From Bacteroidota bacterium (GTDB lineage: Bacteria; Bacteroidota; Bacteroidia; UKL13-3): a DNA stretch of 64,000 bases. A program made the translations under genes and the position numbers. How positions within the stretch are numbered: position 1 is the stretch's first letter; every line of letters begins with the position of its first letter. The notes beneath the pieces were generated by a model, which saw nothing but the letters and a program-made list of their open reading frames with translations, had not been told where the DNA came from and did not search any database. The stretch is taken from assembly GCA_027488905.1 (NCBI GenBank), contig JAIYAT010000003.1, forward strand, positions 1 to 64,000, in the 5' to 3' direction. Shown one piece after another: positions 28,185 through 44,843 of the stretch.

Positions 28185-28913
28185 ATGATGAAAGGTCCAA
28201 ATCCGTATTATATTTCTGAGTATAAATTACCCCTTAACGAATACTTTAATTTCGGCTTATCTGTTGATTGTGTGATATTTGGTTACCAAGAAGGTGAAAT
28301 AAAAGTTTTGTTGGTACAAAGAAGTTTGGAGCCATTTAAAGGTCACTGGGCCTTAATTGGAGATCTTGTAGAGCCTGAACAAAACTTATGTGATGCTGCT
28401 AATAACGTGTTGGAAAAGCTCACAGGATTAAAAAACATTTACATGAAACAGTTTTTTGCTTTTGGAAATGTTGATAGACACCCGTTGGACCGAGTTGTAA
28501 CAATAGGTTACTTTTCATTAGTAAATAGTTTGAACCATAATCCTTTTGCGTCTTCTTGGGCAAAGTCAGCTAAATGGTTTAACATTAATGATTTACCTGA
28601 ATTAGCATTTGACCATTATAATATTTTAGTTAAGGGAATTGAGACCTTAAAAAATGAGGTTAGGCATAAACCAACAGGTTTTGAATTACTACCCCTAAAA
28701 TTTACGTTGTTGGAGCTCCAAACATTATATGAAGCTTTATTAGGATGTAAGTTTGATAAGTCGAACTTTAGAAAAAAAATTCTGGAGATGAATATTTTAA
28801 AACCACTTAATGAGACCAAAGAAAATGTGTCTCATAGGCCAGCAAAGCTCTTTGAATTTGATATCAAGAGGTATAAAATATTAGAAGAGGAAGGCTTTGC
28901 ATTTCAACTTTAA
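28185..28913 (+). CDS. Nudix-fold transcriptional regulator (NrtR/AraR-like)
   Basis: 242 residues. The N-terminal half is a Nudix fold (DCVIFGYQEGEIKVLLVQRS...GHWALIGDLVEPEQNL). In the Nudix box the catalytic REUxEE core is replaced (ANNVLEKLTGL), so hydrolysis is not expected. The C-terminal half is a winged helix (LLPLKFTLLELQTLYEALLG...KSNFRKKILEM). This is the layout of NrtR and, in Bacteroidota, of AraR-type sugar regulators that use the dead Nudix domain as an effector sensor. Position next to the glucan locus suggests it senses a glucan-derived sugar or sugar phosphate. It overlaps convergently by 4 bp the 3' end of the operon. Confidence 0.85.
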   Translation: MMKGPNPYYISEYKLPLNEYFNFGLSVDCVIFGYQEGEIKVLLVQRSLEPFKGHWALIGDLVEPEQNLCDAANNVLEKLTGLKNIYMKQFFAFGNVDRHPLDRVVTIGYFSLVNSLNHNPFASSWAKSAKWFNINDLPELAFDHYNILVKGIETLKNEVRHKPTGFELLPLKFTLLELQTLYEALLGCKFDKSNFRKKILEMNILKPLNETKENVSHRPAKLFEFDIKRYKILEEEGFAFQL

Positions 28914-29845
28914 CTACTACTATTTTTATCTACCACCAATTTAGGTGTTCTATCTGCTTTAAAAATACCCCAATGCTTTTCTGGTTCCATGGGGTCTGAT
29001 GAGCCTTTCCAATTCTCATCAAATGCTTCAAAAAAACAGGTTAAAACATTATTTTTTTCAGACCAGTCCATCAGGTCCTCATAATAAATTTTCTGATTTT
29101 CTTCATTTACGTGCTCAGTATTTATTCCTCTTCCGTGCGAATTGGTGGCCCATCCAGCCTCTGTAATTGCCACTGGTACTCCAGGATATTGATTAACTAC
29201 TAGATCATAATTCGCAATTGAAAACTCAACAGATTCATGTATGTGTTTATATTCCCAAACAGGATAGGTATGGATTGAAATAAAATCAATATGGCTTACG
29301 AGTGGCTTAAGGTAATTTAGCCATGGAACATAATTCTCACAAAAAGTGATGGGTTGCTTAATATTTTGCTTCACTTTCTTTGCAAATTCAATCACACGGT
29401 CTACAGGTACAAAATGGTCTGTCCAATCAACACAAGCTTCATTGCCTAATGAAACAGAAAATATAATTTCAGGATATTGATTAGACCAATCTATAAGGCG
29501 CTGAATAATTTTGTTGTTGGCTACTACATTCTCCTCAAGCTGTTTTTCATCATAAACTCCGCCATTCCAAGGACAACCATGATTATTCATTTCGGCCACA
29601 ATGTAAGCCCCAAGCATTATTTTAAAGTCTAATTTTTCGTTTTGAATAACTTTGATAACGGTTAATGCATGCTCATCACAATCATACAAACGAAGGTAAT
29701 TCCAATGAGGCTTAAGAAGCAGCAAATCTTCCTTAATCTCTTCATAGGAAGGAGTGATTCCTCCTGGTTGCTGTCCATCTCTAAAACCTGAATAACAAAT
29801 AGCTTTAGCAAATGGTAAGTTAAATTGCTGAAAAAAATTAGTCAT
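28910..29845 (-). CDS. Cytoplasmic GH17 family protein (third GH17 of the operon end)
   Basis: 311 residues from the ATG at 29845, which shares one base with the previous stop (TAATG). A longer frame begins inside the preceding gene. It is a clan-A (beta/alpha)8 barrel with the GH17 pattern: GFRDGQQPGG near the start, proton donor Glu136 in SLGNEAC, strand IHTYPVWEY, nucleophile Glu229 in ITEAGWAT. No signal peptide, so cytoplasmic. GH17 members hydrolyse beta-1,3-glucan or transfer beta-1,3-glucosyl units; which one applies cannot be told. It is more like the lipoprotein GH17 (34671-35927) in motifs (GWAT, FFEAFDE) than like its direct neighbour. Confidence 0.85.
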   Translation of the reverse strand: MTNFFQQFNLPFAKAICYSGFRDGQQPGGITPSYEEIKEDLLLLKPHWNYLRLYDCDEHALTVIKVIQNEKLDFKIMLGAYIVAEMNNHGCPWNGGVYDEKQLEENVVANNKIIQRLIDWSNQYPEIIFSVSLGNEACVDWTDHFVPVDRVIEFAKKVKQNIKQPITFCENYVPWLNYLKPLVSHIDFISIHTYPVWEYKHIHESVEFSIANYDLVVNQYPGVPVAITEAGWATNSHGRGINTEHVNEENQKIYYEDLMDWSEKNNVLTCFFEAFDENWKGSSDPMEPEKHWGIFKADRTPKLVVDKNSSS

Positions 29846-30780
29846 TAATATTTTATCTTTTCGTTTTTGTCCCAAAGTCCCCAATAAGCTCCAACATCTC
29901 CTTCTGGACCTACTTTCCAAGACTCATCAAAAGAAGCAAAATAGAAATTCTCTATCCTATTGGCATTACACCAGTTCTGGCAATCTATAAAATATCTCAT
30001 GGCATTTTCATTGGTAGCAATTGATGCTTTAAATGCACCACCTTCGCTTGGCCATCCAGTTTCTGTGATGATAACACGCTTACCTTGTCCGGCATGTTTT
30101 GCAGATTCAAACATACTCTTCATGTGTTCAAAAGAATATTCAATTGGGCATCCTTCCCAATACGGATAGCAATTAGTTAAAATAACATCGCAAATTTCCG
30201 TAATTCTTGGCCTATGCGAAAACTCATAATAAGCATCTACATAACCAACAGGAATATGAGGTATGGCATCTTTAACTCTTTGGATATAGGTCAATAGTTG
30301 CTCTTCGGTTAAATCTTTTCTGTACATCACTTCATTTCCTACAGCCGCAACATCCACCAATCCTTCCTTTGCCATGGCTATTAAACTTTCAATTTCTCTT
30401 TCATTTAATTCCATATCATCTCCTAACCATGCGCCAACAAGCGTTTTCATTCCATGCTTTTTTGCCACTCTTGGCACATGTTCATTGCCTTCAATGCAAG
30501 AAAACGAGCGAACCCATTTTGCATATGGTTTTAAAATATTAATGCGTCTTTCTACTTGCGATTCAGTAATAATTGAACCTGGTTTTTGGCCATCCTCATA
30601 AATGCTAAAACAAATGCCATGCATACCCAATTGAAGTGTTTTGTGCCATAAACTTCTTAAATCTTCGACTGCAAGTTCTGAATAATTGATCCAATTTACT
30701 TCTTGTGCACTTTCTTGTTGAAAATGAGAATAGTGCTCTTTGTTTTCTGCATTAAAGAAATGACCTTCTCTGTATGACAT
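29845..30780 (-). CDS. Cytoplasmic GH17 family protein
   Basis: 311 residues, no signal peptide. GH17 barrel motifs: CFSIYEDGQKPGS, donor Glu150 in AAVGNEVM, YPYWEG, nucleophile Glu240 in IITETGWPS, and a C-terminal FDESWKV...WGLWDKNEK. It is clearly paralogous to the GH17 domain fused to the transporter encoded just upstream, matching almost motif for motif to the last residues (KIKY versus KFKYKK). It probably acts on imported beta-glucan oligosaccharides by hydrolysis or transglycosylation. The start is 10 bp after the fusion gene's stop. Confidence 0.87.
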   Translation of the reverse strand: MSYREGHFFNAENKEHYSHFQQESAQEVNWINYSELAVEDLRSLWHKTLQLGMHGICFSIYEDGQKPGSIITESQVERRINILKPYAKWVRSFSCIEGNEHVPRVAKKHGMKTLVGAWLGDDMELNEREIESLIAMAKEGLVDVAAVGNEVMYRKDLTEEQLLTYIQRVKDAIPHIPVGYVDAYYEFSHRPRITEICDVILTNCYPYWEGCPIEYSFEHMKSMFESAKHAGQGKRVIITETGWPSEGGAFKASIATNENAMRYFIDCQNWCNANRIENFYFASFDESWKVGPEGDVGAYWGLWDKNEKIKY

Positions 30781-30790
30781 ATTATATAGA

Positions 30791-33139
30791 TTATTTTTTA
30801 TACTTGAACTTTTCGTTTTTATCCCATAAGCCCCATGAGGTTCCTAAATTTCCTTCTTGAACAACTTTCCAAGATTCATCAAATGAAGAGAAATGAAAAA
30901 GCTCTAGGTTATTATTGTTTGCCCATTGTTGTGAAATGAGAAAATATTTCATTGCATTTATTCTTGAAGGTATTGCACTTTCAAAGGTTTCTCCCAAACT
31001 TGGCCATCCTGTTTCTGTTACAATTATCCTTTTACCATTGCTGATTGCTTTTGTGACTTCAAGCATATTCGTAAGATATGACACAGAGTAATCAATAGCG
31101 GCACCTTCCCAAAAAGGATAAAAATTACATAAAATCAAGTCGCATACCTCTACCAGTTTAGGCCTTTCTATAAATTGATAATAGGCATCTACATAGCCCA
31201 CTTCAATATGACTAGGAATGGCTTTCTTCACTCTATTTATGTAATCAATCAATTCGGTTTCTGAAATTTCTCCTCTATGCAATACTTCATTACCAACAGC
31301 TGCAATGTTAACCAATCCTGCATTTGCAAGTTTAATCAAAGCATTAATTTCTTTTTCGTTTCTTTCTTTATCATTGCTGATCCAAGCGCCAACAATCGAT
31401 TTAATTCCTTTAGTGTGGGCAATTTCTGGTATCAATTCATTTCCTTCAGTAGCTGAAAAAGTCCTGATCCATTTTGTATGTGGAGCAATAATATCTATTC
31501 TTCTTCTAATTTGTTCTGCTGATAAAATATCGCCAATTTTTTGACCTTCAACATACGCGCTAAAACACAATCCACTCAAACCGGTATTAAATTGTTCAGA
31601 AAACAGGATTTCAATTTCTGTCTCTGTTTTTTTACTGTAATCGGTTCCAATAATTTTATTCAAATTGCTATTTTGAAGTAATGCACTTAATTTTCCTGAT
31701 AGGTAGCTAGAAGATTGTTTCATTAAAGGTGCTTTTCTTTTATCAAGAAGATTTCTTACTTCTAAGGCTTTGGCCTCATCAATATCATAATCTTTCATTG
31801 CCCATAATGCAGTTAATGTTCCTAATATAGGTATGCCTACAAAGAAAACCCTTAACCAAAACATTGTTTCATCTGTTTGTGTGGGGGCATTTGATTGAAA
31901 ACTGACCAATGAAAGAATTAAGCCGCTTATCAAGCCAGCCACAGCTGTTCCAAACTTTACCATCCACCAATAAATAGCACCTAAGCTACCTTCTCTTCGT
32001 TTACCCGTATTCAACTCATCAATATCAATCACATCAGATGTCATAGACATCATTAAGGTAAACAAACTACCAATCCCAAAAGAAAAGAAAGGTAAGGCAA
32101 AAAGAAAAAGATAAGGCTTACCAGGTACAAATAGTAAAAAGAGTAAAATGTAACCTACAATTGAAATGCTTTGAGAAAGTAAAAATGCTTTCTTCTTTCC
32201 CATTACTTTAGACATTCTAGCAACAATAGGAATCACTAAAACCGTTGTTATAATTGCTCCGATACTCCCAAACAAAGTAGGCCATAATCCAAAACCATCT
32301 TCATTGCCCTTAAATAAATAGTATTTAATAATAAAGTAAGAAAAGCCTGCAGTTGTTTGAAAAGCATTAAATATTAAAAAAGTAGCTATACAAATTTTTC
32401 TGAAAGGCTTAATTTCTATTGATGCTTTTAGCCCTTCTTTAATTTCTCCAAAACTATTTAGAATTCCTTTAAAATCGATAGGGCTATAGTTTTCGTTTAA
32501 AGTAGATTTACTAGGAATAAAAAATGCTGGAATAGCTGCTAAAATAGAACAGCCAATGGCAACATAAACCGACAAAGTTCTGACCGCAACATCACTAGAG
32601 GGAAACAATGATTTATCAGCCATAATTACCCAAAACCACGGTGCAATAACCCAAGCTAATTGACCAATGAGTTGAGAAGTAGCCATGATGTTTGTTCGCT
32701 CATGAAAATCATCACTCATTTCATAACCCATGGCCACATAAGGAATGCTAAAAATGGTAAGTCCAGAATAAAAAATCAAAGAAATTCCTAAAAAGAAGAT
32801 AAAATTATAGGTAACTCCGTTTTCACCGTAAAGTTGCCACATTAATGCGAATGAAATTCCTAAAATTATGGCACCTGTTAATACATATTGTCTTCTTCTT
32901 CCCCACTTCGATTTTGTATTATCACTTACATAACCCATAATGAGGTCAAATAAAGCATCATAAAACTTTGGAATAAAATAAGTTAATCCAAGTAACAAAC
33001 CGCTAAAACCTAGCTTTTCTACCAGAACAACGGTGAAAATTCCAATCATTGCAGGAAACATTTGATTGGCAAGCATGCCGAGACCAAAAGCAACTTTTTG
33101 CCCTATTGGAACTTTGTGTGATAAATTGTGATTGGACAT
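30791..33139 (-). CDS. GPH/MFS sugar transporter fused to a C-terminal GH17 domain
   Basis: 782 residues in one frame. Residues about 1-455 are a 12-helix GPH-family (MelB-like) sugar:cation symporter: GLGMLANQMFPAM, PKFYDALFDLIMGYVSDNTK, WGRRRQYVL, and KRREGSLGAIYWW in the central loop region. A linker of about 60 residues leads to a complete GH17 domain (517-782) with CFSAYVEGQK, donor Glu618 (VGNEVL), nucleophile Glu709 (VTETGWPS) and the WGLWDKNEKF end. With an even number of helices both ends of the carrier face the cytoplasm, so the enzyme domain should sit at the exit of the transporter. It likely imports laminari-oligosaccharides and processes them on arrival. The GH17 part is a paralogue of the next gene. 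Confidence 0.88.
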   Translation of the reverse strand: MSNHNLSHKVPIGQKVAFGLGMLANQMFPAMIGIFTVVLVEKLGFSGLLLGLTYFIPKFYDALFDLIMGYVSDNTKSKWGRRRQYVLTGAIILGISFALMWQLYGENGVTYNFIFFLGISLIFYSGLTIFSIPYVAMGYEMSDDFHERTNIMATSQLIGQLAWVIAPWFWVIMADKSLFPSSDVAVRTLSVYVAIGCSILAAIPAFFIPSKSTLNENYSPIDFKGILNSFGEIKEGLKASIEIKPFRKICIATFLIFNAFQTTAGFSYFIIKYYLFKGNEDGFGLWPTLFGSIGAIITTVLVIPIVARMSKVMGKKKAFLLSQSISIVGYILLFLLFVPGKPYLFLFALPFFSFGIGSLFTLMMSMTSDVIDIDELNTGKRREGSLGAIYWWMVKFGTAVAGLISGLILSLVSFQSNAPTQTDETMFWLRVFFVGIPILGTLTALWAMKDYDIDEAKALEVRNLLDKRKAPLMKQSSSYLSGKLSALLQNSNLNKIIGTDYSKKTETEIEILFSEQFNTGLSGLCFSAYVEGQKIGDILSAEQIRRRIDIIAPHTKWIRTFSATEGNELIPEIAHTKGIKSIVGAWISNDKERNEKEINALIKLANAGLVNIAAVGNEVLHRGEISETELIDYINRVKKAIPSHIEVGYVDAYYQFIERPKLVEVCDLILCNFYPFWEGAAIDYSVSYLTNMLEVTKAISNGKRIIVTETGWPSLGETFESAIPSRINAMKYFLISQQWANNNNLELFHFSSFDESWKVVQEGNLGTSWGLWDKNEKFKYKK

Positions 33140-33145
33140 ACCTAT

Positions 33146-34654
33146 TTATTGTTTAATAACGATTGTTTGTAATGCTTTTGAATCTATAGTAATTTGTTTT
33201 ACTTCCGTTTTTAAATTGACTGAAATACTGAATTTATCATCAGTTGGATTAAACAAAGCAATAACAATGCTTCCATCTGGATTTTGAACAGCAGTAGCCA
33301 TCACCTCCTTGTGATTTATTTCGCAACCAATTTTAACTGCCCCTGGTCGCATAAATTTGCTAAAATGAGCCATTACATAATATAATGGAGTAAAGTAAAC
33401 CTCATCTTTATCTGGATTTACAATAACAGGAGCAACACACCAATTTTTAAACCAATTTGGCCCTCCTTGTGTATCTAAAACCATATTCCAATCAATCCAA
33501 CCATCCACATAATTATTCAAACAGCCAATGATATCCGTAGCATATCTATTAACTGGCGCATATTTGGGATGCAAATGACGGTCTTTTTCACTGGCCCAAT
33601 CCCATCCCCAATCCGTGGCTTCTTTTTGCCAATACCATTTGTCATCTTTCCATTTTGGCACTTCTGAATCTACACAGCCTTCTGTTTCTATCAGGTACTT
33701 TTCAGGAGCCTTTTTATGCGCATATTGCAGTGCATCTGGAAAATAATCATAGGTGCTTTCATACCAATGAATGGCAACGCCAGCAAAATACTTCGAAGAT
33801 TTCTCATCCCTGTACATTTCATCTACCCATTCTTTTAATCCAGCTCTGTTTTGATCGTAACCAAAAATATTTAGGTCACCCCATCCATCCTTCTCCAATT
33901 TTGGACCTAAATAATCTTGCACAAAATCAGTCATTTCTTTGGGTGAAAATAAGGTGCTTTCCCAATTATTGCCATTTCCATGTGGCTCATTAATTACCGT
34001 AATACCCCAAACATTAATGCCTTCTTTCTTATAGGCAGAAAGATATTTTGAAAAGTAAAGCGCAAAAGCATCATTAAACTCAGGTAATAATTTACCACCA
34101 ACAAAACTTTTATTGTCTTTCATCCAGGGCGGTGCAGTCCATGGTGAGGCGATGATTTTAAAGCCTTCTTTCGAGATTTTTTGTGCGTCTAGTATCATTG
34201 GGATTAAATCATCTTTATCATTTTCAATTGAAAAATGCTTTAACTCCAAATCATTCTCTACTTTAGCATAGGTATAATTGCTTAAAGAAAAATCACAGGA
34301 TGCAATATGTGTTCTGGTTAAAGAATAACGTGCACCTTCATCACTAAAATAGGCATCCAATATTTTCTTTCTATTTGCTGGACTCAGTTTATTTAATAAA
34401 AAAGCTGACGCTTCAGTAAACGAACCGCCAAATCCTGTAATTTTTTGAAATTGCTTTTCAGGATTGACTTGTATTGTTAATGATTTATCGGCAGGTTTAA
34501 AATCTTGAATTAAGGTTAAAGCATTTCCTTCTTCGGAGGTTTCATATACATCAATCGTCATTTCTTTTCCTTTTGAACATTGAATAAAAAACAAACAAAT
34601 CAATATTATTGATATGAAATTAAAACAATAGAAATGTAGTTTATTATTCTTCAT
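33146..34654 (-). CDS. GH30 family glycoside hydrolase, lipoprotein
   Basis: 502 residues. The leader ends in a lipobox FIQC (Cys26). The GH30 barrel is evident: GFGGSFTEASAF, SPWTAPPWMK, proton donor Glu223 (VINEPHG), nucleophile Glu325 (ETEGC), and a C-terminal beta-sandwich flanking the barrel. Close relatives are beta-1,6-glucanases and glucosylceramidase-like enzymes. In a laminarin locus a role in removing beta-1,6 branches is the most natural inference. It acts in the periplasm or on the cell surface. Spaced 6 bp from the transporter fusion. Confidence 0.9.
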   Translation of the reverse strand: MKNNKLHFYCFNFISIILICLFFIQCSKGKEMTIDVYETSEEGNALTLIQDFKPADKSLTIQVNPEKQFQKITGFGGSFTEASAFLLNKLSPANRKKILDAYFSDEGARYSLTRTHIASCDFSLSNYTYAKVENDLELKHFSIENDKDDLIPMILDAQKISKEGFKIIASPWTAPPWMKDNKSFVGGKLLPEFNDAFALYFSKYLSAYKKEGINVWGITVINEPHGNGNNWESTLFSPKEMTDFVQDYLGPKLEKDGWGDLNIFGYDQNRAGLKEWVDEMYRDEKSSKYFAGVAIHWYESTYDYFPDALQYAHKKAPEKYLIETEGCVDSEVPKWKDDKWYWQKEATDWGWDWASEKDRHLHPKYAPVNRYATDIIGCLNNYVDGWIDWNMVLDTQGGPNWFKNWCVAPVIVNPDKDEVYFTPLYYVMAHFSKFMRPGAVKIGCEINHKEVMATAVQNPDGSIVIALFNPTDDKFSISVNLKTEVKQITIDSKALQTIVIKQ

Positions 34655-34670
34655 GATTTAATTTTTCTCC

Positions 34671-35927
34671 CTATGGCAGTTCAATGGTATGAAGTAAATC
34701 TTCTTTTCTGCCCTTGTATGTCTTTTCAATTGGTCTACCATCTCTTGTCAAGTTTTTAAATACGCCTTGATCCAACATTTCCCATAAAGCAAACTTTGCT
34801 TTGCCCTCAATAGTAAATAATCCAAAATGATTTTCAGACCCATTGGGATTTTTAGCGTCCTTCCACTTTTCATCAAAAGCTTCAAAATAGAAGCATGTAA
34901 TTTTCTCTTTATTTGTCCATTCCCTTACCAATTGGTAATACCTAGCTGATTTATATTCATCACAAGCTTTCGACCCCTCCTTACCATATAATCCATCAGA
35001 TTGAGTTGCCCAGCCTGTTTCGCCAATATGAATTGGCTTATCCACTCCAATCGATTGCATATAACTAAAAACATTAGAATACTGTTCTTTAGCATAGTTT
35101 AATGAGCGTATCATCAACGAGTCAATTTTTTCCTCTTTACTTAGGCCCTTTTCACTTGGCTTCAATCCCCAAAAAACAGGATTATAATGCGTATCGTGCA
35201 TGGGATAAGTATGAATAGAGATATAATCTACAGCTTGAAACAATTTCTTTAAATCAGTAACATGATACGTGGAGTCACCACCACCCCAAGAAGCGAAGTT
35301 GTCAGAGGAGGTAATCCATAAATCTTTGGGCAATCCATTTTCATCTTTTAACTGTTGTAAATGATTTACCCATTTTAAGATAATATTTGGCGATACATAA
35401 TAACTAGTTGCCCACTTCACCATCGCTTCGTTGCCTACAGCTATTACCTTTATAATTTCAGGATATTGATTTGCTAACTTTACGGCTCTAGCGATTTCCT
35501 CAGCATTGGCCTTTTCATTTTCCCTTTCATGTTTGGGTTTAATATTAGTCCAAGCATTTTCACAATCTATCCACGCACCAAGCATCACATACATTTCAAA
35601 AGTTGGATCGTCTATTTTCAACTCAGAGATTGCCTGCAATAGATTATTTATCTCTGCATATTTAGTATTGTATGTGCGCAAAATTTTAACTCCCATAGCA
35701 CTAATGAGTTTCATATCCTCTTTTAGTTGAGATAAGGTAGGTTGCGAATCCCGCGAATTGGCGCGATAACCACCATAGCAAATTGCCAAATAATTGGAAT
35801 CACCTAAAATCTGAGCAGCAGTTTTATTCGTCTCCAAATACTTTGTTTCATTTGAATTGTTCTGGAAGTCACAAGAGGTAAAAACAATAGAAATTAACAA
35901 ACAATAAATTAAACTAAGCTTTGGCAT
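34671..35927 (-). CDS. GH17 family glycoside hydrolase, lipoprotein
   Basis: 418 residues. Lipobox FTSC with Cys19. Motifs of GH17: ICYGGYRANSRDSQP, donor Glu167 (AVGNEAM), SIHTYPMHD, nucleophile Glu303 (IGETGWAT), FEAFDEKW. It differs from the three cytoplasmic GH17 domains by its export signal and about 100 extra residues. It likely cuts beta-1,3-glucan chains outside the inner membrane. It starts 4 bp after the phosphorylase gene stops, so is co-translated within the operon. Confidence 0.9.
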   Translation of the reverse strand: MPKLSLIYCLLISIVFTSCDFQNNSNETKYLETNKTAAQILGDSNYLAICYGGYRANSRDSQPTLSQLKEDMKLISAMGVKILRTYNTKYAEINNLLQAISELKIDDPTFEMYVMLGAWIDCENAWTNIKPKHERENEKANAEEIARAVKLANQYPEIIKVIAVGNEAMVKWATSYYVSPNIILKWVNHLQQLKDENGLPKDLWITSSDNFASWGGGDSTYHVTDLKKLFQAVDYISIHTYPMHDTHYNPVFWGLKPSEKGLSKEEKIDSLMIRSLNYAKEQYSNVFSYMQSIGVDKPIHIGETGWATQSDGLYGKEGSKACDEYKSARYYQLVREWTNKEKITCFYFEAFDEKWKDAKNPNGSENHFGLFTIEGKAKFALWEMLDQGVFKNLTRDGRPIEKTYKGRKEDLLHTIELP

Positions 35928-35931
35928 GCTG

Positions 35932-38900
35932 TTACTTTAAAATAGACCCTTTAACATATACAATAATTTGAACTATTTCACCGGTTCTACTAAATATAAG
36001 TGTACTTGTTTCTTTATCTAAGTAATGTGAAGGCTGTTTGGATAATGAACCATCCCTCTTTTCAATTTCCAGATAATTTTCATCAGATAAGTTATAAATA
36101 ACAGGCACTTGACAAACAGTAAAACAAAGAGAACCTAAAATAGGTGCTAGCGTTTTATGTTCGTTGTTAATTGTAACATAATTAAACGTGCGTTCTTGGG
36201 TGGTAAACTCGTCTTTTCGCAATAAACATGGGTTAAAATACAAACAACCATTTGCAACAAAAACACCCAACTCACCAAATCTACTTAGAATATCTTCTTT
36301 TACCTGACCCGTCATACCAGGTTGTTGCGCGCCTTTATTTGCCGGAGTATGCGAGTAGGGATCTGTTGGGAAAGCACCATATAGTGAAGGTGATTTATGT
36401 ACACCAATGCCTGCATTGATTTCGTAATAATGTTCTAAAAGTTTACCTATTAATTCTGGTGATTCATTAGTTTCTATAGCCAATAAACATACTTCTTGAA
36501 CAGACAATTGAAGTTTAGAAACCATATGCCAATAAATAGAGCCAAGGCCCTCGTACCCATAAAATGTTCCTGAGCGACCAGTAAAGGACTTGTGATCAAA
36601 CACAGTCTCAAAAATCTCTAAAAGAATCTGCTTTTCATTAAGAATTAGTTGACCATATTTCACTGCATCTAGTTTTTCTATAGCATTATCCAAATCCGAT
36701 GCATTTTTAAAATTGCCATTAAAATGATATTCACCTTTAACATCTTGCTCAACAAGAGATTTATCTCCTGAAGCAAGCATTAAGTTAATAAGCTTCGATT
36801 GTTCAATTAACTTTTTAGGTATATTATTTTTATCTAGAAATTTAGGGAGATTCTTATTAGGATAAAGTAAATAACTATACTGATCTGGACGAAAGAGTGC
36901 ACTATGTTTCATGCTGTCCAATAAACTCACTGCTTCTTTAGGAGATAAATAGCCAGAGCTTAGCACAGCAACTTGTCCTTCAAGCATTTCATTAAGATAA
37001 GCAATAGCGACTTCATTATCGTTTTGAAAACTCATCAAATTATAAGAATGATACATATTATCATCGCGCTTATTTGCATTGATGGTATGTTCAGTAAACT
37101 CAATACTCAATTTAACAAATGCTTTTAATCTTCTGTATGAAATTGTTCTTTTCTCTCCCCAAAAAGTTTGTTTGTAAATAATACTTCTATATTCACTACC
37201 CGCTTCACCTAAGCTATCAAGTATTAACTTGCGTTGCTCATTGTTAATCTCACCCTTTAATAAAGGCGCATTTTCTTCTAAGGTTGAATGAATCTTTTTA
37301 AAGAAAATAATCAATTCATTAGAAAGTGCAACACGCTCTTCATTTGTTTGCTCAATTAGCTTTTCAAAAAATACGAGGAACCTTCTCAGGTAACAAAGTG
37401 TTACCACCGAAACGCCATTTCCAACAAGTGCATTATTGGCATCATTCCATTCTGGTCTTTGGGTATTCATCCAAATCCCCCCACCAGGTATAAAATTAGA
37501 TAGTTTTGATAAAATACTAGCCAGTATCTTTTCTATAAAGTTTACATTATATATTTTATCGTTTTGAGCCAACAAAAGAGTTGCATCAGAGCCTAAAATC
37601 TCTCTGCTTTTTCTGATCTTCGCATCCAACTCCTCATCAAACTCAATGGTGTCTTTTGCATTTTTAACAATCTCTTTATAATTCTTTATTTTGTATGGAA
37701 CATTGGCATATACAAAAAGTTCTTCACTAAATTGACTGCTCAGTTGCCCTGGAAAGTACTTCTCATTAATTTCCAATAATTTTAGCAAATAAATGATCTG
37801 ATGGTCACCCCAATAGCCAATGTAAGACCAAGGATTATCAGGTTCAACCGTTTCCCAGTCAAAGCCACCCTTTGTTAAACGATAGGGGTTATATCCTTCA
37901 AAGGTGGTTGCATTTAAAAACTTATGAACCATGCCTTTGGTAAAAGAAGGAAAGGATATCGACAAGGCCTCCCAATTTTGAAAAATATCCCGCCAGTTTC
38001 CTTCGTAATCTAATATTTTTGAATGATCTACTGCGCTCCGCGTATTGATAGAAAACTTATTCCAAGGCCTGCTTGGATCGCCGTGCCTTCTGCTAAACTT
38101 CAACGGAAGGTATTCAATACAAAGTCGCTTAAAATCTTTATCGTTAGTTTGCGTATATATTTTCTCCAACTCAAAAACAGTGAATGTTTCCTCCAAGCCT
38201 TCTAATAAGTCCTTGTGGTTCTCATATACTGATTTGTTTGCAGCTGCAACAGATTTAATTAAATCCCATTTCTCAATTTGGTAGTTAAAATCAAAAATAC
38301 CTCCCCGCATGATATTGAAAAGGGTATTTGAAAAATGCCTTGTATCTCTATAAACATCATTGGATAATTGAATGCCGTCAGAGGATGCATTCAATTCCAT
38401 TAGGCGTTTTGAACCAAGCTCAATATCATCTGTTACTTGCTTTTCTAGATTTTGATTGTTTTTAATTTCACTAATTAGGTTTACCACATTGGCCTGAGTT
38501 TGATTTACATCTGCTACTATAAGCCATTGCTTTTTACTTCTTAGTGCTAGCGTAATTTTCTTATTTATAAAATAAGCACCTCGTTCTGCCTTTACATCAA
38601 TTTCTTGTGTTAATGGAAGTCCTTTTCTAAATTCATTGAGTTGCAAAGATGAAACTAAGTACAATGGATTATCGAACCCAAGTGACCATGCAATATTAGC
38701 CATTAGCGCTTCACTTGGTTCAGCCTTATCTACTATAATGGCACTCAACGCAAAAATACCCATGCCAGCGCTCGGGTCCAATTCATTGCGTTTGTATGCG
38801 TCCACAAGAATACTAGTTGAGTTTTGCAAATCACTGCCCACCCCATCTGGCATAATGTTTTGTATACCATCTAGGATATTAATAGTTAGTTCTTCGTTAC

Positions 38901-39384
38901 CATCATTTATCAATGAAGATTTACGCACAAAACCATAGATGTTACTAGAGTTCCATTCGTACCTAAATGTTAGTTCAAAGTTGTGATTAATCTCCTCGAA
39001 AATAATTTTATTTCCGAAAACACTTTTATATAGATTACGAGTTGTGTTGAACAAGATAGTATTGCGTTCAGAAAATGGCTCCCAAATAAAGGTTTGGTCA
39101 TTGTGAATAATCTGAAATATTGACTTAGAACCAGTAGTATCGTAAGACTCCGTAATCTTATCTGCAGTATAATATGGGAATAGCGCATGTTCGGCATTTT
39201 TACGACCAGCAGAAAGTCCACCATTACTCGATATAAACATCCAATGGTGAGAGTCACTTACAATACTCATAAAAAACGGACGCATTGCATCATGATTAGA
39301 AATACAAAAGAAGTTTTCGCCTTCTATTTTCAGTCTTTTTATTCCTACTAAAGATTCTTCTATCATTTGATTTTGAACTGACAT
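35932..39384 (-). CDS. GH149-like beta-1,3-oligoglucan phosphorylase
   Basis: 1150 residues, no signal peptide. Length and pattern match the large inverting phosphorylases related to GH94: an N-terminal beta-sandwich (FFCISNHDAMRPFFMS), then an (alpha/alpha)6 barrel with RRHGDPSRPWNKFSI, DYEGNWRDIFQNWEAL, GYWGDHQIIYLL, PEWNDANNALVG and a GRSGTFYGYEGLGSIYW region. GH149 enzymes (about 1100 residues) phosphorolyse beta-1,3-glucan oligomers to glucose 1-phosphate in the cytoplasm; GH161 is the alternative assignment. In this operon it would consume oligosaccharides brought in by the transporter fusion and save one ATP per glucose. Confidence 0.82.
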   Translation of the reverse strand: MSVQNQMIEESLVGIKRLKIEGENFFCISNHDAMRPFFMSIVSDSHHWMFISSNGGLSAGRKNAEHALFPYYTADKITESYDTTGSKSIFQIIHNDQTFIWEPFSERNTILFNTTRNLYKSVFGNKIIFEEINHNFELTFRYEWNSSNIYGFVRKSSLINDGNEELTINILDGIQNIMPDGVGSDLQNSTSILVDAYKRNELDPSAGMGIFALSAIIVDKAEPSEALMANIAWSLGFDNPLYLVSSLQLNEFRKGLPLTQEIDVKAERGAYFINKKITLALRSKKQWLIVADVNQTQANVVNLISEIKNNQNLEKQVTDDIELGSKRLMELNASSDGIQLSNDVYRDTRHFSNTLFNIMRGGIFDFNYQIEKWDLIKSVAAANKSVYENHKDLLEGLEETFTVFELEKIYTQTNDKDFKRLCIEYLPLKFSRRHGDPSRPWNKFSINTRSAVDHSKILDYEGNWRDIFQNWEALSISFPSFTKGMVHKFLNATTFEGYNPYRLTKGGFDWETVEPDNPWSYIGYWGDHQIIYLLKLLEINEKYFPGQLSSQFSEELFVYANVPYKIKNYKEIVKNAKDTIEFDEELDAKIRKSREILGSDATLLLAQNDKIYNVNFIEKILASILSKLSNFIPGGGIWMNTQRPEWNDANNALVGNGVSVVTLCYLRRFLVFFEKLIEQTNEERVALSNELIIFFKKIHSTLEENAPLLKGEINNEQRKLILDSLGEAGSEYRSIIYKQTFWGEKRTISYRRLKAFVKLSIEFTEHTINANKRDDNMYHSYNLMSFQNDNEVAIAYLNEMLEGQVAVLSSGYLSPKEAVSLLDSMKHSALFRPDQYSYLLYPNKNLPKFLDKNNIPKKLIEQSKLINLMLASGDKSLVEQDVKGEYHFNGNFKNASDLDNAIEKLDAVKYGQLILNEKQILLEIFETVFDHKSFTGRSGTFYGYEGLGSIYWHMVSKLQLSVQEVCLLAIETNESPELIGKLLEHYYEINAGIGVHKSPSLYGAFPTDPYSHTPANKGAQQPGMTGQVKEDILSRFGELGVFVANGCLYFNPCLLRKDEFTTQERTFNYVTINNEHKTLAPILGSLCFTVCQVPVIYNLSDENYLEIEKRDGSLSKQPSHYLDKETSTLIFSRTGEIVQIIVYVKGSILK

Positions 39385-39436: not shown

Positions 39437-40261
39437 CTATTTCTCTTTATAAGCCCTAACATAATCAATAGTCATAGAACCTGGAAACGGTGTACTTGCA
39501 TTAGGCGGACCAACAAAGCTTCCACCAACCGCAATGTTCATGATGATAAAAAATGGCTGATTAAATACCCACTCACCTGGCACTTCAGCAGGTGTAATTC
39601 TTTTATATAGGTAGTTGTTTACAAAAAAATCAATTTTGCTTTCATTCCATTCAACAGCATATATATTAAAGTCATTATCAAATCTGTCATTCGCGAGTGC
39701 AAATGGAGTAGTAATGGCTTGTCCACCAGAATAACCAGGACCATGAATAGAACCATAAGTAATGTTAGAAAATTTACCCTTTTGTTCCATGATATCAATC
39801 TCTCCGCATTGCGGCCAGCTAACTGCAGTGATATTATTTCCCAACATCCAAAATGCTGGCCAAATGCCAGAACCAGTTGGTGTTTTAATGCGCGCCTCAA
39901 TCTTACCAAATTGTTGGGTAAATAAGCCTTGTGTTTTTACACGCGCAGAGGTGTAACTTCCATTACTATTTTTAAGTGCGGTTATAACAAGATTACCTTT
40001 GCCATCCAAAGATACATTTCTTGGATTGTTAGTATAGCTTTGTAGCTCGTTATTTCCCCAACCGTTTTGACCTGTGCCCAAATCATAGGTCCATTTTGCA
40101 GCATCAGGTGCAGCAGCAGAATCCCCTTCAAACTCATCGCTCCAAACCAATTCAAAATTTCTTTCTGGTAGCGTCTGTATTGGTTCAACCTTACAGCTAG
40201 CAACAACTATGGCTATAATTGCCATTAGCATTATTTTATTTGAATGTTTCATTAATTTCAT
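39437..40261 (-). CDS. GH16 laminarinase-type endo-beta-1,3-glucanase, lipoprotein
   Basis: 274 residues (Met4 is an alternative start). Lipobox VASC, Cys23. Jelly-roll GH16 domain with the catalytic GEIDIME motif (Glu154, Asp156, Glu159), LVWSDEFEGD at the N-terminus, WPAFWMLG, and the C-terminal FFIIMNIAVGG and IDYVRAY strands. This is the arrangement of GH16_3 laminarinases, which cut internal beta-1,3 bonds. As a lipoprotein it probably acts at the outer membrane and makes the first cuts in the polymer. Confidence 0.93.
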   Translation of the reverse strand: MKLMKHSNKIMLMAIIAIVVASCKVEPIQTLPERNFELVWSDEFEGDSAAAPDAAKWTYDLGTGQNGWGNNELQSYTNNPRNVSLDGKGNLVITALKNSNGSYTSARVKTQGLFTQQFGKIEARIKTPTGSGIWPAFWMLGNNITAVSWPQCGEIDIMEQKGKFSNITYGSIHGPGYSGGQAITTPFALANDRFDNDFNIYAVEWNESKIDFFVNNYLYKRITPAEVPGEWVFNQPFFIIMNIAVGGSFVGPPNASTPFPGSMTIDYVRAYKEK

Positions 40262-40281: not shown

Positions 40282-41691
40282 TTATTTGTAGAAATAAATA
40301 TTGTCTAGAATAAAATTCGGACCGCCTGTAACAATAATAGCCCCTAAGTTACCTTTCTGATTTAAAATAGCGCCATTAAGTGGAATATCAAAAGACTTCC
40401 AAGCTCCCGTTTGAAATCCTGTTAAATTTGTTCTAACATCTTTATCATCTCCCATTGGATTGCCGGTATTCACATCCGTTTCAATGGTTTTGTTCGACCC
40501 TATATCTCTAATTTGAATTCCAATCGTAGTAGCAGCATTTTCAACATAAGCATCTATGTGCAAAAAGCCTAAACCTGAAGCATCCACTGGGTTTTCGGTG
40601 AACATAATTCCTGTATAATTATTATTACTATACTGCGCAACTTTTCCTGTGCTGGTTGTTAATATTTCAGTTATAGTGGTAGAGCCACCAAAATTAGGAG
40701 TAAAATTACTTTCAGTTGCATTGGTATAAGCATCGCTAAATAACGATTTTACATCCGCTGCTGGTCTAGTTGGTATTGGTGAACCTACCAAATCTCCTTT
40801 ACAATCGATTGTGAGTTTTCCTTTAACAGAAACACCATTTATACTTGCAGTAATATCTGCAGTTCCTATAGCCAAAGCAGTTACCACCCCAACATCATTG
40901 ACAGTAGCAACTGTAGGATTAGAACTGGTAAATTTATAATAAGCAGGAGTAGAGATTACACTTACATCTTGGCCGTTTACAAGATTATAAATATGGCTTA
41001 ATCCTGTAAGGTTTATGGTCGAACCAATAAATGCCTTAACCGAACTTGTTTGCCCATTTAAAATGCTAGAGGTTGGTTTACCTACCGTACCCAGTTTTTC
41101 AAATTTTATTTCATCAAACCAAAGGGTATAACCAGTACCAATTGTAGCTTGAGGGCCAGCGGCAAACCAAAAAACGCCTCTTTCATTTACTAGTTTTGAG
41201 GGGTCGGGGATTGGAATGATAACCTTAGACCAATTAGTTCCAACATTAACATTTTGGATGGTTACTCGGTATTTATCACCTAGATAGTCGATCCCATATC
41301 CCACATCACTAAGTTTTGCACCTGTAGATCCTTTAACATAAAAAGTGAGTGCGTCAAAACCACTAAGGTTTCTGCCTGCACCATCAATTCTAAAAATAGC
41401 ACCAGCATAAGTTCCTGTTGGATCTGTATTATTAGGCACATCTATTCTTACAGAAGCATTACTGTTATACCCCTCTTTCATATCTACCGAAAACACATCT
41501 GGTTTTGCATCGGCAAAGGGGAAATAAAAATTAGAGCCTAAACCAATAAAGTCATCTGTAAAAATATCTCCATTAGCAGAAAATGAAGGCAGTACCGCAT
41601 CATCAGACAATTTTCGTTCGCACCCTACTTCAAAAAATAGAATGGTAGATAACAGACTTATAAGTATTGTTTTTTTATTTAAAGTATTCAT
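40282..41691 (-). CDS. Surface glycan-binding-type lipoprotein with Ig-like (BIG2) domain
   Basis: 469 residues. Lipobox EVGC (Cys24). Three parts: a jelly-roll carbohydrate-binding-like domain (about 40-200, ending WFDEIKFEKL), a BIG2 bacterial Ig-like domain (about 215-297, SSNPTVATVNDVGVVTALA), and a second binding-like module (about 308-469) opening with PTRPAADVKSLFSDAYTN. The last module is shared with the T9SS protein at 26238-28079. It has no catalytic residues. It probably takes the place of a SusE/SusF-type glycan-binding protein, holding beta-glucan at the surface for the operon's enzymes. Confidence 0.82.
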   Translation of the reverse strand: MNTLNKKTILISLLSTILFFEVGCERKLSDDAVLPSFSANGDIFTDDFIGLGSNFYFPFADAKPDVFSVDMKEGYNSNASVRIDVPNNTDPTGTYAGAIFRIDGAGRNLSGFDALTFYVKGSTGAKLSDVGYGIDYLGDKYRVTIQNVNVGTNWSKVIIPIPDPSKLVNERGVFWFAAGPQATIGTGYTLWFDEIKFEKLGTVGKPTSSILNGQTSSVKAFIGSTINLTGLSHIYNLVNGQDVSVISTPAYYKFTSSNPTVATVNDVGVVTALAIGTADITASINGVSVKGKLTIDCKGDLVGSPIPTRPAADVKSLFSDAYTNATESNFTPNFGGSTTITEILTTSTGKVAQYSNNNYTGIMFTENPVDASGLGFLHIDAYVENAATTIGIQIRDIGSNKTIETDVNTGNPMGDDKDVRTNLTGFQTGAWKSFDIPLNGAILNQKGNLGAIIVTGGPNFILDNIYFYK

Positions 41692-41723: not shown

Positions 41724-44700
41724 TTAATTATTGATATTTACTTGGAAGTAGATTCGGAATTCCCACTCATTTCCGTTAGGGAATCCAATGGCATTTGGAT
41801 CAGGAACGAATTGCCCAAGGCTATTCATCTTCATGATTGGTGAGTACCTATTAGAGTATCTATCAAGCGTACGATAGGTTCCTCTAAAACCAAGTTTAGT
41901 TCCTGGCATAAAAAACCAGTCTGGTTTTCCTATTTCTAAAGACCAGTCACCAATAAGTTGAAGTGGGAAAGTTTGGTTAAAATCTCTATGATAATCAAAA
42001 GGACCCCAATCATCAATTCTAGCAATAGTCATTAATTTCATTCTTTTATAAATGGTTCTAATGTCAACGCCATATCTATTAACGGTTCTTGCGTCACTTC
42101 CATTGGCCTGACCATTTCCAAAATAAATGTTACCAATGATACCAAATTGAGGATTAATTTTTGAAACCACTCTGGTGTTAACTTCCCAAAGGTCTTGGGC
42201 AGGTGCCGAACCAGGAAAAACAAATGTTGTACGGCCATTTCCGAGGATACCAATAGCAGCGTCTTGCACAGTTGGAAGGTGACGATAAACAAATCCAGCA
42301 CTCATTGCAAATTTGGCATCTTCCATCCTGTCATTATCCCATTCATACATCCAAGTGGCAGGAGTTGGATCAAAGGTAAGCAAAAGCTCTCCAGCTACTG
42401 TTTCTCTATTTCCCCTTACAGAAAAAGGATCATCCAATATATTTCTTGGGCGAGCAGGAGCAGCGAAATTTGGTCCTATTGGTCCTACTAAAGGTTTCTG
42501 ATATAAAAAATTTGGTGCAAATTGAAATTTACCAATGTTGTAAGTAAATCCAGTAAGTGCATTATACATGTTGCCACTTCCAATATCTTTTAGTGCCCAT
42601 CCAGTAAATGTTTTTGTTTGATCCACGCCTCCGTTAGCAACCAAGCCCATATAAGAAGCAAGACCATACCACCTCACAGCTCCTGTAGAATAGGTGAGTT
42701 TTACTTTTCCTCCGAAATTATCTGTGTTTTTTATTTTATCTACATACACAACATCGTTTTCAATCATTTGAAAATCTCTTCCGTTGAGCGGCTGTCCGCC
42801 CCAAATTCCACCTAAATCAAAGGTGAGTTTTTCCATTTTTTTGCCTACCACAAAAGTCAATCTTCTTGTTTTTGGCACTGGAACCGCAAATGAACTCTGC
42901 AAATTGGTTCGTTGAACAATATCCTCATGAAAAATACCCGTTACGTCTAAACCAGCCACTTTTTTACTATACTTTACTAAAAATGCAGGGTTTGCTCCCC
43001 ACCATAATTCTGGTCCAAATGCCACTTTTAGGCCTTTAAATTTTCTTTTCGCTTCCAGTTCAAAACCAAAAGGGGCGCCACCATTATATATGTCAATATT
43101 AGGCCCATAGTTTGCTTCAGGATATAGGCTAAAAAAATCTCCTTCATAACCCCAATGGTAATGGCCTGTTCTGTAAAAGCCTGTTAATTTAAAGTCCTTA
43201 TCATCCCAACTATAGCTAACTCGATATAACTGCACCCTATTATTTGAGTTAATTTGTTGTGGTCCGCTTGGCGTTGTAACAGTTATTGGCCTTCCTCTAT
43301 TTTCATAAAATATTTCATCAATAGGTTTAGAAGCTACATTACCCAGAACGTTAAGCTGAACATTTGCTTTCATATTAGGTGCAGGTCTAGCTGTTACGCC
43401 AATATTAAAGGACTGCATATGGTCAAACCCTTGGCCACTTGGATAGGTTGTTGTGTTTGATGGATTAGAGGCTGCAGGGGTTGTGATAAGACTACCACCT
43501 GTTTGGAAGCTTGTGAAATTAGCTTGCAGATTACTTAAATATAATTTGCCTTTGTCTTTTGACTCCAAAACTGCTTTATCACCTCTTGCTTTTAAAGCAA
43601 AGTCGGCATTAGAAACAGTATTGAAGAAAGAATTCATTGCGCTAGGATTGCCATTATAAGGATTAAATTTATGGACATATTGCAAAGCATAATAAGCTGC
43701 TCTTGGATAAAGCTCATAATTACCTCGTTCGTTTGTTTGTCCTTTGGCGCATATTCCAAACCACTCCTCATTCATATTATTTTCACCTTTGGCAAAATCA
43801 TTGGAATAACCGCCATTCGACCAGGATGCAGTTGCATCATGTTCATCTAAGTTTAAGGTTTGACCTGTTTTCCACCATCCATCGCTAAATTGAAAGGTAA
43901 AGCCACCCAAGCTATTTCCGCTATTTCCCATTCCCTCCGCATTCTCATATATTCCTTTCCAATTACTCACCAACACCTTTGCCTGATATTCTTGATCTTC
44001 TTGATTAGCTATAGTATTATAGGCATCTGCACCAAATTCAGTCAAAACAATAGGCATATCTAATTCCTTCTTAACACGGTCAAACAAATCAGTAAAAGTT
44101 GCACCGCGGTATACATTTATACCAAGTATATCAACGTCCTTACATTCCTTTGCAATGATTTCAGCAAACAATAAATCTCCATTACAGATAGCAATTGGAT
44201 GATTCTTGTCGATTTGCTTTAATTCCTTTGCAGCATCGTTAAAGAGTTTATAAAGATGATAGGCATCCTTTGTAGAATTACGGTCAGCAAATGGAATATT
44301 TTCAGTTTCTGCTCCTCGCCAAAAAAGACCATAGTTGTTCTCATTTCCTAATAAAAAAATTAAAACACCCGGCGTTTCTTTGTATTGGGATACCATTTCT
44401 TTTGTTTCATTGAGCAAAATCTCACGAACCAATGGATTTGAATAATCCGTAATAGCTTCCCATTTTCCTTTAACAGTTAACCCATATCGACCAAAAGAGT
44501 GGTTTAACATGGTGTAAATACCATATTTTTCATAAATATATTTAATCCACTTCGCCGGAACTCCAGTATATTGCCTGATAACATTTACACCCATATTTTT
44601 TAATAAGGCCATTTCATTATCTAAAGCAGCAATTATTACCTCATCAGGTTGCTTCCATAGACTATAGTTATAGTTTGTACCTATTGGAAAATAATCCCAG

Positions 44701-44843
44701 TTCATTCCATTGATGAATGTCTCTTTCCCATTTACAGAAAGTTTAAAGCCACTATTAGATTTTGTAACAAGCACTTTATCACTTTGCGCAAAAGTTAGTG
44801 CAGGTATTAGAAACAAGAGGCATTGAAGTAAGAGTTTTTTCAT
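41724..44843 (-). CDS. Glycoside hydrolase fused to a predicted outer-membrane beta-barrel
   Basis: 1039 residues in one frame, first gene of the operon. Signal peptide 1-20 (LTFAQ). Residues about 25-395 form a clan-A TIM barrel like GH2/GH5-type glycosidases, with a probable donor Glu168 (LLGNENN) and nucleophile Glu269 (VLTEFGA). Residues about 430-1039 are a run of alternating polar/aromatic strands with turns, e.g. VAFGPELWWGANPAFLVKYS, GGKVKLTYSTGAVRWYGLAS and the final WEFRIYFQVNINN, the look of an outer-membrane beta-barrel. So the catalytic domain appears tethered to a pore or barrel in the outer membrane. No TonB box, plug domain or SusD partner is seen. The exact GH family is not certain. 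Confidence 0.78.
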   Translation of the reverse strand: MKKLLLQCLLFLIPALTFAQSDKVLVTKSNSGFKLSVNGKETFINGMNWDYFPIGTNYNYSLWKQPDEVIIAALDNEMALLKNMGVNVIRQYTGVPAKWIKYIYEKYGIYTMLNHSFGRYGLTVKGKWEAITDYSNPLVREILLNETKEMVSQYKETPGVLIFLLGNENNYGLFWRGAETENIPFADRNSTKDAYHLYKLFNDAAKELKQIDKNHPIAICNGDLLFAEIIAKECKDVDILGINVYRGATFTDLFDRVKKELDMPIVLTEFGADAYNTIANQEDQEYQAKVLVSNWKGIYENAEGMGNSGNSLGGFTFQFSDGWWKTGQTLNLDEHDATASWSNGGYSNDFAKGENNMNEEWFGICAKGQTNERGNYELYPRAAYYALQYVHKFNPYNGNPSAMNSFFNTVSNADFALKARGDKAVLESKDKGKLYLSNLQANFTSFQTGGSLITTPAASNPSNTTTYPSGQGFDHMQSFNIGVTARPAPNMKANVQLNVLGNVASKPIDEIFYENRGRPITVTTPSGPQQINSNNRVQLYRVSYSWDDKDFKLTGFYRTGHYHWGYEGDFFSLYPEANYGPNIDIYNGGAPFGFELEAKRKFKGLKVAFGPELWWGANPAFLVKYSKKVAGLDVTGIFHEDIVQRTNLQSSFAVPVPKTRRLTFVVGKKMEKLTFDLGGIWGGQPLNGRDFQMIENDVVYVDKIKNTDNFGGKVKLTYSTGAVRWYGLASYMGLVANGGVDQTKTFTGWALKDIGSGNMYNALTGFTYNIGKFQFAPNFLYQKPLVGPIGPNFAAPARPRNILDDPFSVRGNRETVAGELLLTFDPTPATWMYEWDNDRMEDAKFAMSAGFVYRHLPTVQDAAIGILGNGRTTFVFPGSAPAQDLWEVNTRVVSKINPQFGIIGNIYFGNGQANGSDARTVNRYGVDIRTIYKRMKLMTIARIDDWGPFDYHRDFNQTFPLQLIGDWSLEIGKPDWFFMPGTKLGFRGTYRTLDRYSNRYSPIMKMNSLGQFVPDPNAIGFPNGNEWEFRIYFQVNINN

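Follow-up and report, generated by a model that had tools for sequence, protein, structure and literature searches.

What is a glycosidase doing at the head of an outer-membrane beta-barrel? The question is raised by one gene in a 64,000-nucleotide stretch of DNA from a Bacteroidota bacterium (Bacteroidia; UKL13-3; GenBank assembly GCA_027488905.1, contig JAIYAT010000003.1, positions 1 to 64,000 of the forward strand), hereafter the window. The gene lies at 41724-44843 on the minus strand, starts with ATG and encodes a protein of 1039 amino acids that ends in ...EWEFRIYFQVNINN. A first-pass annotation, made from the sequence alone and with the same coordinates, had read it as a clan-A glycosidase fused to an outer-membrane beta-barrel, and offered two explanations: an enzyme-gated porin that feeds its own products inward, or an outward-facing tethered enzyme. 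Predicted models and structural matches bear out the fusion itself. Our computational analysis establishes the two domains, the closed-barrel fold, the obligate nature of the fusion, its place in a conserved gene cassette and its replacement by the SusC-SusD pair in relatives. The best-supported reading is that it imports fragments of beta-1,3-glucan in the place of SusC-SusD, although the direction of transport is one that we infer; we consider it probable that the protein is the outer-membrane importer of a beta-glucan operon, SusCD-like in role but built from other parts and with an enzyme at its exit.

Along the minus strand, residues 1-20 (44784..44843) form a type I signal peptide without a lipobox cysteine, recognised from the sequence and from the N-termini of relatives; the single lipobox flagged among 86 fusion rows belongs to a locus other than the window and is probably spurious. 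Residues 21-396 (43656..44783) form a TIM barrel of clan GH-A resembling glycoside hydrolase family 158 (GH158, with other families named likewise), as indicated by Pfam, PDB sequence matching, fold and invariance. The junction, residues 397-433 (43545..43655), comprises two helices of the glycosidase followed by a hinge of about six residues (428-433), its limits being drawn from AlphaFold models and from comparison with free enzymes, that is, homologues without a barrel. Residues 434-1039 and the stop codon (41724..43544) make up a predicted 24-strand outer-membrane barrel, supported by models and structural matches.

The glycosidase matches Pfam Glyco_hydro_2_C weakly (E 1.5e-5), and its best PDB sequence match is the GH158(Pro) structure 9oro (E 2e-6), with which it also shares its fold (Z 25.7, root-mean-square deviation (rmsd) 3.0, 279 residues, approximately 22% identity). 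The folds of GH5 and GH2 come within 1 of that Z and are counted as tied, which makes 'GH158-like' the safe name; the domain does have the arrangement of GH158, a TIM barrel with a catalytic glutamate after strands 4 and 7. The predicted acid/base Glu168 (codon 44340-44342) and nucleophile Glu269 (codon 44037-44039) align with the glutamates of the 9oro motifs LGNE and TEFG and show no variation across the 66 aligned fusions, so that the fold and the glutamate pair proposed at first sight both stand. Two loops modelled with low confidence, 169-183 and 320-349, are conserved in free enzymes too, and are for that reason more likely to be active-site loops. The fused glycosidase probably cuts beta-glucan.

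The barrel resembles nothing catalogued by sequence: no family in Pfam or NCBIfam covers residues 431-1039, and a barrel profile found no match among PDB sequences. Structure prediction, which the first-pass annotation had recommended alongside such a family search, returned a closed outer-membrane barrel of 24 strands, counted from the models. With a 66-row alignment as input, AlphaFold folded this part of the full-length protein as an all-beta region of 24 long strands (predicted local distance difference test (pLDDT) 75.5, predicted template modelling score (pTM) 0.56), and residues 397-1039 alone gave 24 strands again (pLDDT 77.6, pTM 0.76). A soluble beta-sandwich array, the outcome named beforehand as fatal to the barrel, is rejected by both models and by the structural neighbours, since Foldseek matches the region to TonB-dependent receptors (among the top matches), porins and ushers. 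The usher pores PapC and FimD align with it from first strand to last (7lhh: Z 14.4, rmsd 4.7, 367 residues); AlgE and other porins reach a Z within 1 of the ushers with fewer residues aligned. The predicted structure is closed, with an even number of strands, long outer loops and short inner turns, as in outer-membrane barrels, and with the strand number of chaperone-usher pores as counted from the model. The amphipathic periodicity noted earlier holds on average, lipophilic in-strand alternation having a mean of 0.70 against 0.36 for shuffles inside the same strands, but is weak strand by strand (p < 0.05 in five of 24, and 0.050 in two more).

Conservation is nearly equal in barrel (0.733) and enzyme (0.759). 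The outer loops match the strands in conservation (0.756 and 0.717, respectively). Four loops lie at 0.88-0.94, and across the outer loops 16 aromatic or histidine positions are at least 97% invariant; loops so conserved are unlike those of a mere anchor and would suit either selective passage of sugar or docking. The presence of TonB-dependent receptors among the top matches, and of 28 Plug matches in the genome of the window, might suggest a divergent SusC, that is, a TonB-dependent importer in which the glycosidase has taken the place of the plug and TonB pulls on the N-terminus. Yet the Pfam and NCBIfam scans of the fusion protein recognised no Plug domain, there are 24 strands rather than 22, and the mature N-terminus runs within a few residues into the first strand of the enzyme, with no obvious conserved TonB box to be seen by eye in an informal inspection of 17 N-termini. 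Since a TIM barrel is also too wide for the lumen, we regard TonB-driven import of this kind as distinctly improbable.

The fusion is neither a chance event nor specific to one strain, both of which are rejected by its occurrence in 33 of 395 genomes and in 80 of the 80 best-matching loci. The protein matches 41 of 296 Bacteroidota genomes: 28 at full or near full length (the window genome included), four with an enzyme and no barrel, one in pieces and eight distantly. A barrel profile detects a full-length barrel in 33 of 395 Bacteroidota genomes, and in addition a single broken copy and a single remnant; the enzyme is in the same frame in every one of the 33, counting G204, where a contig end splits the barrel over two contigs. 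A species collection holds at least 587 matching stretches, of which the best 80, a list that favours full-length copies, all carry both parts in one frame; the groups named in the records include Flavobacterium, Chryseobacterium, Chitinophagaceae, Saprospiraceae, Cyclobacteriaceae, Bacteroidales and a Kapaibacterium. The fusion is therefore widespread and conserved across the phylum Bacteroidota, its barrel always joined to the enzyme. In the broken copy (L118, G235:C53:1-12000) the enzyme is in one frame and the beginning of the barrel in another, and the remaining barrel is missing; an open reading frame (ORF) that appears transposase-like by eye follows at 3337-4176.

The most telling evidence of function is a swap within one genus (g55), which argues most strongly for a SusCD-like role. 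Two of its genomes (G022 and G112) carry fusion-CBM-GH16-GH149-GH17-MFS-GH17, where CBM denotes a lipoprotein with carbohydrate-binding modules and MFS a transporter of the major facilitator superfamily. A third (G104) carries SusC-SusD-GH16-free enzyme-GH149, and a fourth (G123) SusC-SusD-GH16-GH149-GH17-MFS, its free enzyme lying in a different cluster on the same contig; in both of these the enzyme is a free lipoprotein, and no barrel remains were found in either, or in G242. A further genome, G119, has a barrel deletion caught mid-course, with 53 barrel residues right after the stop codon of the enzyme and GH149 directly next (L117:3468-3626, C314). In the smaller of our trees, whose root is a free enzyme on a long branch, the barrel-less enzymes of G104, G123 and G119 nest within the fusion clade (11 rows, 100/99; 6 rows, 99/98), which indicates that the barrel was lost in these genomes. 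A full-length CBM lipoprotein is present in 10 of 10 fusion genomes and in none of four barrel-less genomes, a count that does not represent ten independent events because the genomes are related.

Elsewhere the fusion and SusD seldom meet. As the first-pass annotation had supposed, the fusion has neither a plug nor a SusD nearby, the only match to the SusD family PF07980 in the genome being on another contig. SusD (PF07980) occurs within 20 kb of the fusion in three of 26 fusion genomes (G053, G103 and G226, all of one family) and in none of the other 23, while four of the 26 have no PF07980 match anywhere; this count excludes G204 and the window genome, some of its contigs end less than 20 kb from the gene, and PF07980 misses some SusD families. 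A sequence search for SusC and SusD, seeded from one locus and covering 8 kb on each side, was positive at one of 46 fusion loci. Of the 71 unlabelled ORFs with 550 or more amino acids around the same 46 loci, 60 were scanned (11 were dropped for size or as obvious housekeeping genes), taking the best 25 of 103 families, a scan that a lone TonB-dependent receptor could escape. In the three exceptional genomes SusC-SusD stands beside the fusion (L119, L120 and L145, in G103, G053 and G226 respectively), and in L120 and L145 further CBM-like lipoproteins lie between the two.

If SusD is missing, does anything accompany the barrel? The impression of a protein without a partner has to be corrected, for the next gene is a CBM/Big_2 lipoprotein in all 78 checkable loci: 72 satisfy a 600-base rule, and of the remaining six, five have listed starts that overlap the fusion and one lies at 729 bases. 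In one genome (G144) the full-length CBM lipoprotein is approximately 10 kb away and not adjacent. The partner in the window (40282..41691, minus strand, as are all genes described below) consists of a CBM-like module, a Big_2 domain and a second CBM-like module, and the acidic residues that follow its lipid-bearing cysteine (CERKLSDD) suggest that it is at the cell surface. Big_2 is found in 20 of 23 CBM lipoproteins, and CBM_11, CBM_4_9 or CBM30 weakly in some of the 23, whereas a profile of the CBM modules against the PDB matches mostly immunoglobulin-like domains.

GH16 follows in 65 of 66 loci, and in the window is a lipoprotein (39437..40261; domain matches and lipobox) that is likely to be a surface endo-beta-glucanase. 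Beyond it lie a GH149 beta-1,3-glucan phosphorylase, cytoplasmic, with no signal peptide seen (35932..39384; NCBIfam NF058639 at 1744 bits against a cut-off of 1150); a GH17-type lipoprotein, slightly below the Pfam cut-off, that lacks the acidic export signal and is likely periplasmic (34671..35927); and a GH30 lipoprotein, recognised by Pfam and NCBIfam, also likely periplasmic (33146..34654), whose best NCBIfam match is an endo-1,6-beta-glucanase below cut-off. They are followed by an inner-membrane symporter of the GPH/MFS_2 type with a C-terminal GH17 domain (30791..33139; Pfam and NCBIfam), a second fusion of transporter and enzyme in the same operon, and by two GH17 enzymes recognised by Pfam, one with no signal peptide seen (29845..30780) and one whose listed TTG start overlaps the preceding gene, so that its true start is unsure (28910..29920). 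Among the 28 MFS ORFs in fusion loci that reach 400 amino acids, three are fused to GH17, as are those of L117 and the window.

Acidic residues after the lipid-bearing cysteine are the published surface-export signal of lipoproteins, in the part of that account covered here (PMC5080379). Their mean number is 2.74 in CBM lipoproteins (62 of 95 with lipobox) and 1.91 in GH16 (70 of 81), against 0.41 in GH17 (37 of 43) and 0.71 in GH30 (21 of 38), a pattern that assigns CBM and GH16 to the cell exterior, and GH17 and GH30 to the periplasm.

Such a set of genes also bears on whether the pore might work outward, as an exporter or modifying pore of the PgaA or AlgE kind whose enzyme trims a self-made glucan on its way out. 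AlgE is among the close structural neighbours, and exopolysaccharide export typically has a hydrolase in the periplasm next to its pore, which this arrangement resembles; but there is no glucan synthase among the annotated genes of the operon, whose content (GH149, GPH symporter, GH16, GH17 and GH30) is degradative and directed to import, and it is SusC-SusD that replaces the fusion in relatives. Export is accordingly very improbable.

Several other genes of the window and of related loci were noted in passing. A conserved regulator of approximately 940 amino acids stands immediately upstream of the fusion in L039, L044, L048, L055 and others, and is not adjacent in the window; Y_Y_Y, Reg_prop and LuxR-type domains occur in 25, 18 and 16, respectively, of the 60 scanned ORFs, and this Reg_prop/Y_Y_Y/LuxR-type helix-turn-helix protein is probably the sensor of the operon. 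The product of 26238-28079, near the end of the glucan operon, carries a type IX secretion tail; it also matches CBM_11 below threshold and may be secreted to bind glucan. Near the operon on its upstream side, 46661-49879 encodes 1072 amino acids with PKD_6 and DUF4842, while 10987-18453 encodes 2488 amino acids in which a type IX secretion tail is the sole Pfam match.

On which side of the membrane, then, does the glycosidase lie? In the modelled barrel, gaps after odd strands have a median of 26 residues and gaps after even strands a median of 2 (Mann-Whitney p 2.8e-4). Long loops of outer-membrane proteins point outward, which puts both ends of the barrel in the periplasm, and the glycosidase, preceding strand 1, should then be periplasmic as well. 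The comparison with ushers points the same way: their N-terminal domain is periplasmic, and in the end-to-end alignment of the barrels it occupies the same place as the glycosidase.

An outward-facing enzyme would instead need the barrel as its anchor and a linker threaded back through the pore, as in the autotransporter EstA, whose barrel has 12 strands with the linker helix running through the lumen. A wide pore could hold such a linker and the conserved outer loops could dock the enzyme; the free homologues, moreover, carry acidic residues after their lipid-bearing cysteine. The junction is nevertheless difficult to reconcile with threading. The last helix before the hinge is also present in stand-alone enzymes without a barrel, and the helices are modelled at pLDDT 83-89 (residues 401-420) when the enzyme is included and at 46-66 (397-426) when it is removed, a loss of confidence which means that they are not predicted in the lumen. 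What is left after the last helix of the enzyme, the hinge of about six residues, is too short to span the barrel. The protein thus has 24 strands, and a helix that belongs to the enzyme, where an EstA-type autotransporter has 12 and a linker in its lumen, and a pure anchor would need neither so many strands nor conserved loops. The threaded model is weakened accordingly and we think it unlikely, even though the GH158 enzymes found in SusCD loci are predicted to lie at the cell surface in the part of that study covered (PMC7157763). Of the two explanations first offered, the enzyme-gated porin fits better and the tethered outward-facing enzyme has become the less likely. By strand parity, the usher match and the occurrence of the junction helix in free enzymes, the predicted position of the glycosidase is most likely at the periplasmic exit of the pore.

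In proposing a mechanism for a SusCD-like importer with its enzyme at the exit, we envisage the following. Glucan would be captured by the CBM/Big_2 lipoprotein at the surface and cleaved to oligosaccharides by the surface GH16 lipoprotein. These would enter the large barrel, where the aromatic-rich outer loops, unusually conserved, may select them and probably narrow the pore, and the GH158-like glycosidase, held by its short hinge at the periplasmic exit, would cut them as they emerge and so block their flow back. Periplasmic GH17 and GH30 would trim the products further, the GPH symporter (here fused to GH17) would move them inward and GH149 would phosphorolyse them. The earlier phrase, that the porin feeds its own products inward, needs rewording on this account: it is likelier that surface GH16 makes the oligosaccharides, which the barrel imports and the fused enzyme then cuts. 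The symporter-GH17 fusion could act as the same exit-side trap at the inner membrane, so that an enzyme would stand at the exit of the transporters of both membranes. Whether import through a plug-less 24-strand pore is also independent of TonB, with hydrolysis at the exit and not the proton-motive force making uptake one-way, is a further step that we put forward tentatively and with rather more doubt than confidence; dispensing with TonB energy in favour of hydrolysis is the boldest and least certain part of the proposal.

Several observations weigh against this account. The 28 Plug matches indicate that TonB machinery is probably present in the genome. The fusion and SusC-SusD can coexist, as they do in three genomes of one family, and in L075 a SusC is nearby on the opposite strand. 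The placement of the enzyme at the exit rests on predicted topology, the full-length model reaching a pTM of just 0.56, and the Z-scores that join the barrel to ushers, AlgE and others lie within 1 of each other and are tied. No dedicated contact between enzyme and barrel is evident, because fused and free enzymes differ at three of 145 conserved positions; residues 83, 385 and 422 were all that the comparison yielded, and a fusion-specific interface was rejected. The free enzymes that have a lipobox, five in number and two of these distant, average 1.8 acidic residues after the cysteine, nearer to surface lipoproteins, and BuGH158 is predicted at the cell surface in the part of its description covered (PMC7157763); both argue for an enzyme on the outside. 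Lastly, the substrate is deduced from neighbouring genes.

What would follow if the proposal is correct? A gene common among Bacteroidota of fresh water, soil and the sea would be an outer-membrane gate for beta-1,3-glucan, which is a major storage carbohydrate of algae, and the fusion would apparently be an import gate for algal or fungal glucan. The barrel and its CBM lipoprotein would constitute a third uptake route for polysaccharide fragments, besides SusCD and simple porins, and one-way import of large oligosaccharides without TonB, by means of an enzyme placed at the exit, would become a testable question for which the swap within g55 is a ready comparison of both uptake solutions. Glycan loci of Bacteroidota are sought by SusC-SusD, which is treated as their hallmark, so those based on the fusion can easily escape notice or be labelled 'GH2'. 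The type of locus, GH158-like enzymes, ushers, sugar porins and a fusion at the inner membrane are already known; no description of a glycosidase joined to an outer-membrane barrel was found by title or opening of the abstract, a search with most subscription journals and all preprints outside its scope, and a new mechanism is a genuine possibility.

The structural features of the fusion and its operon have analogues in several known systems. Closest in organisation are the SusCD loci of Bacteroides for levan, dextran and beta-1,3-glucan, each of which likewise combines a barrel, a surface glycan-binding lipoprotein and a surface endo-glycanase; the fusion differs in having no plug and no SusD, but 24 predicted strands, an N-terminal enzyme and a CBM/Big_2 partner. 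The GH158 enzymes BuGH158 (6pal) and 9oro share the clan GH-A fold and catalytic glutamate pair of the fused enzyme, which is set apart by low identity over the fold, by the tie with GH5 and GH2 and by its barrel; the free homologues are closer to the fused enzyme than to 9oro. Ushers have the same 24-strand barrel end to end and a periplasmic N-terminal domain, whereas the fusion, at approximately 10% identity, has neither a plug inserted in a loop nor C-terminal domains and ends at its last strand; the Pfam scan found no usher domains, and there are no pilus chaperone or subunit genes among the scanned proteins of the window. The sugar porins VhChiP, ScrY and AlgE, which are among the structural matches, are also barrels that pass saccharides, but have 16 to 18 strands and no fused hydrolase.

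The laminarin locus of Muricauda, with GH2, GH16, GH149, GH17, GH30 and MFS genes, has in the place of the fusion an upstream gene called a GH2 beta-glycosidase (PMC13188888). Set beside our protein by description, and in view of the Glyco_hydro_2_C score, this is probably the fusion protein, although the portions of that text covered make no mention of a barrel. In a laminarin locus of Formosa, FbGH17b (FORMB_24740) is a fusion of an MFS transporter and a GH17 enzyme that degrades laminarin, for which a coupling of transport and hydrolysis was proposed, in the part of the report covered (PMC6246565), and the product of 30791-33139 in the window has a homologous architecture. Judged from the same part of that report, FbGH17b is an inner-membrane symporter with a C-terminal enzyme, whereas the fusion described here is an outer-membrane barrel with an N-terminal one. 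It too joins transporter and carbohydrate-active enzyme in one chain, its own transport role being predicted.

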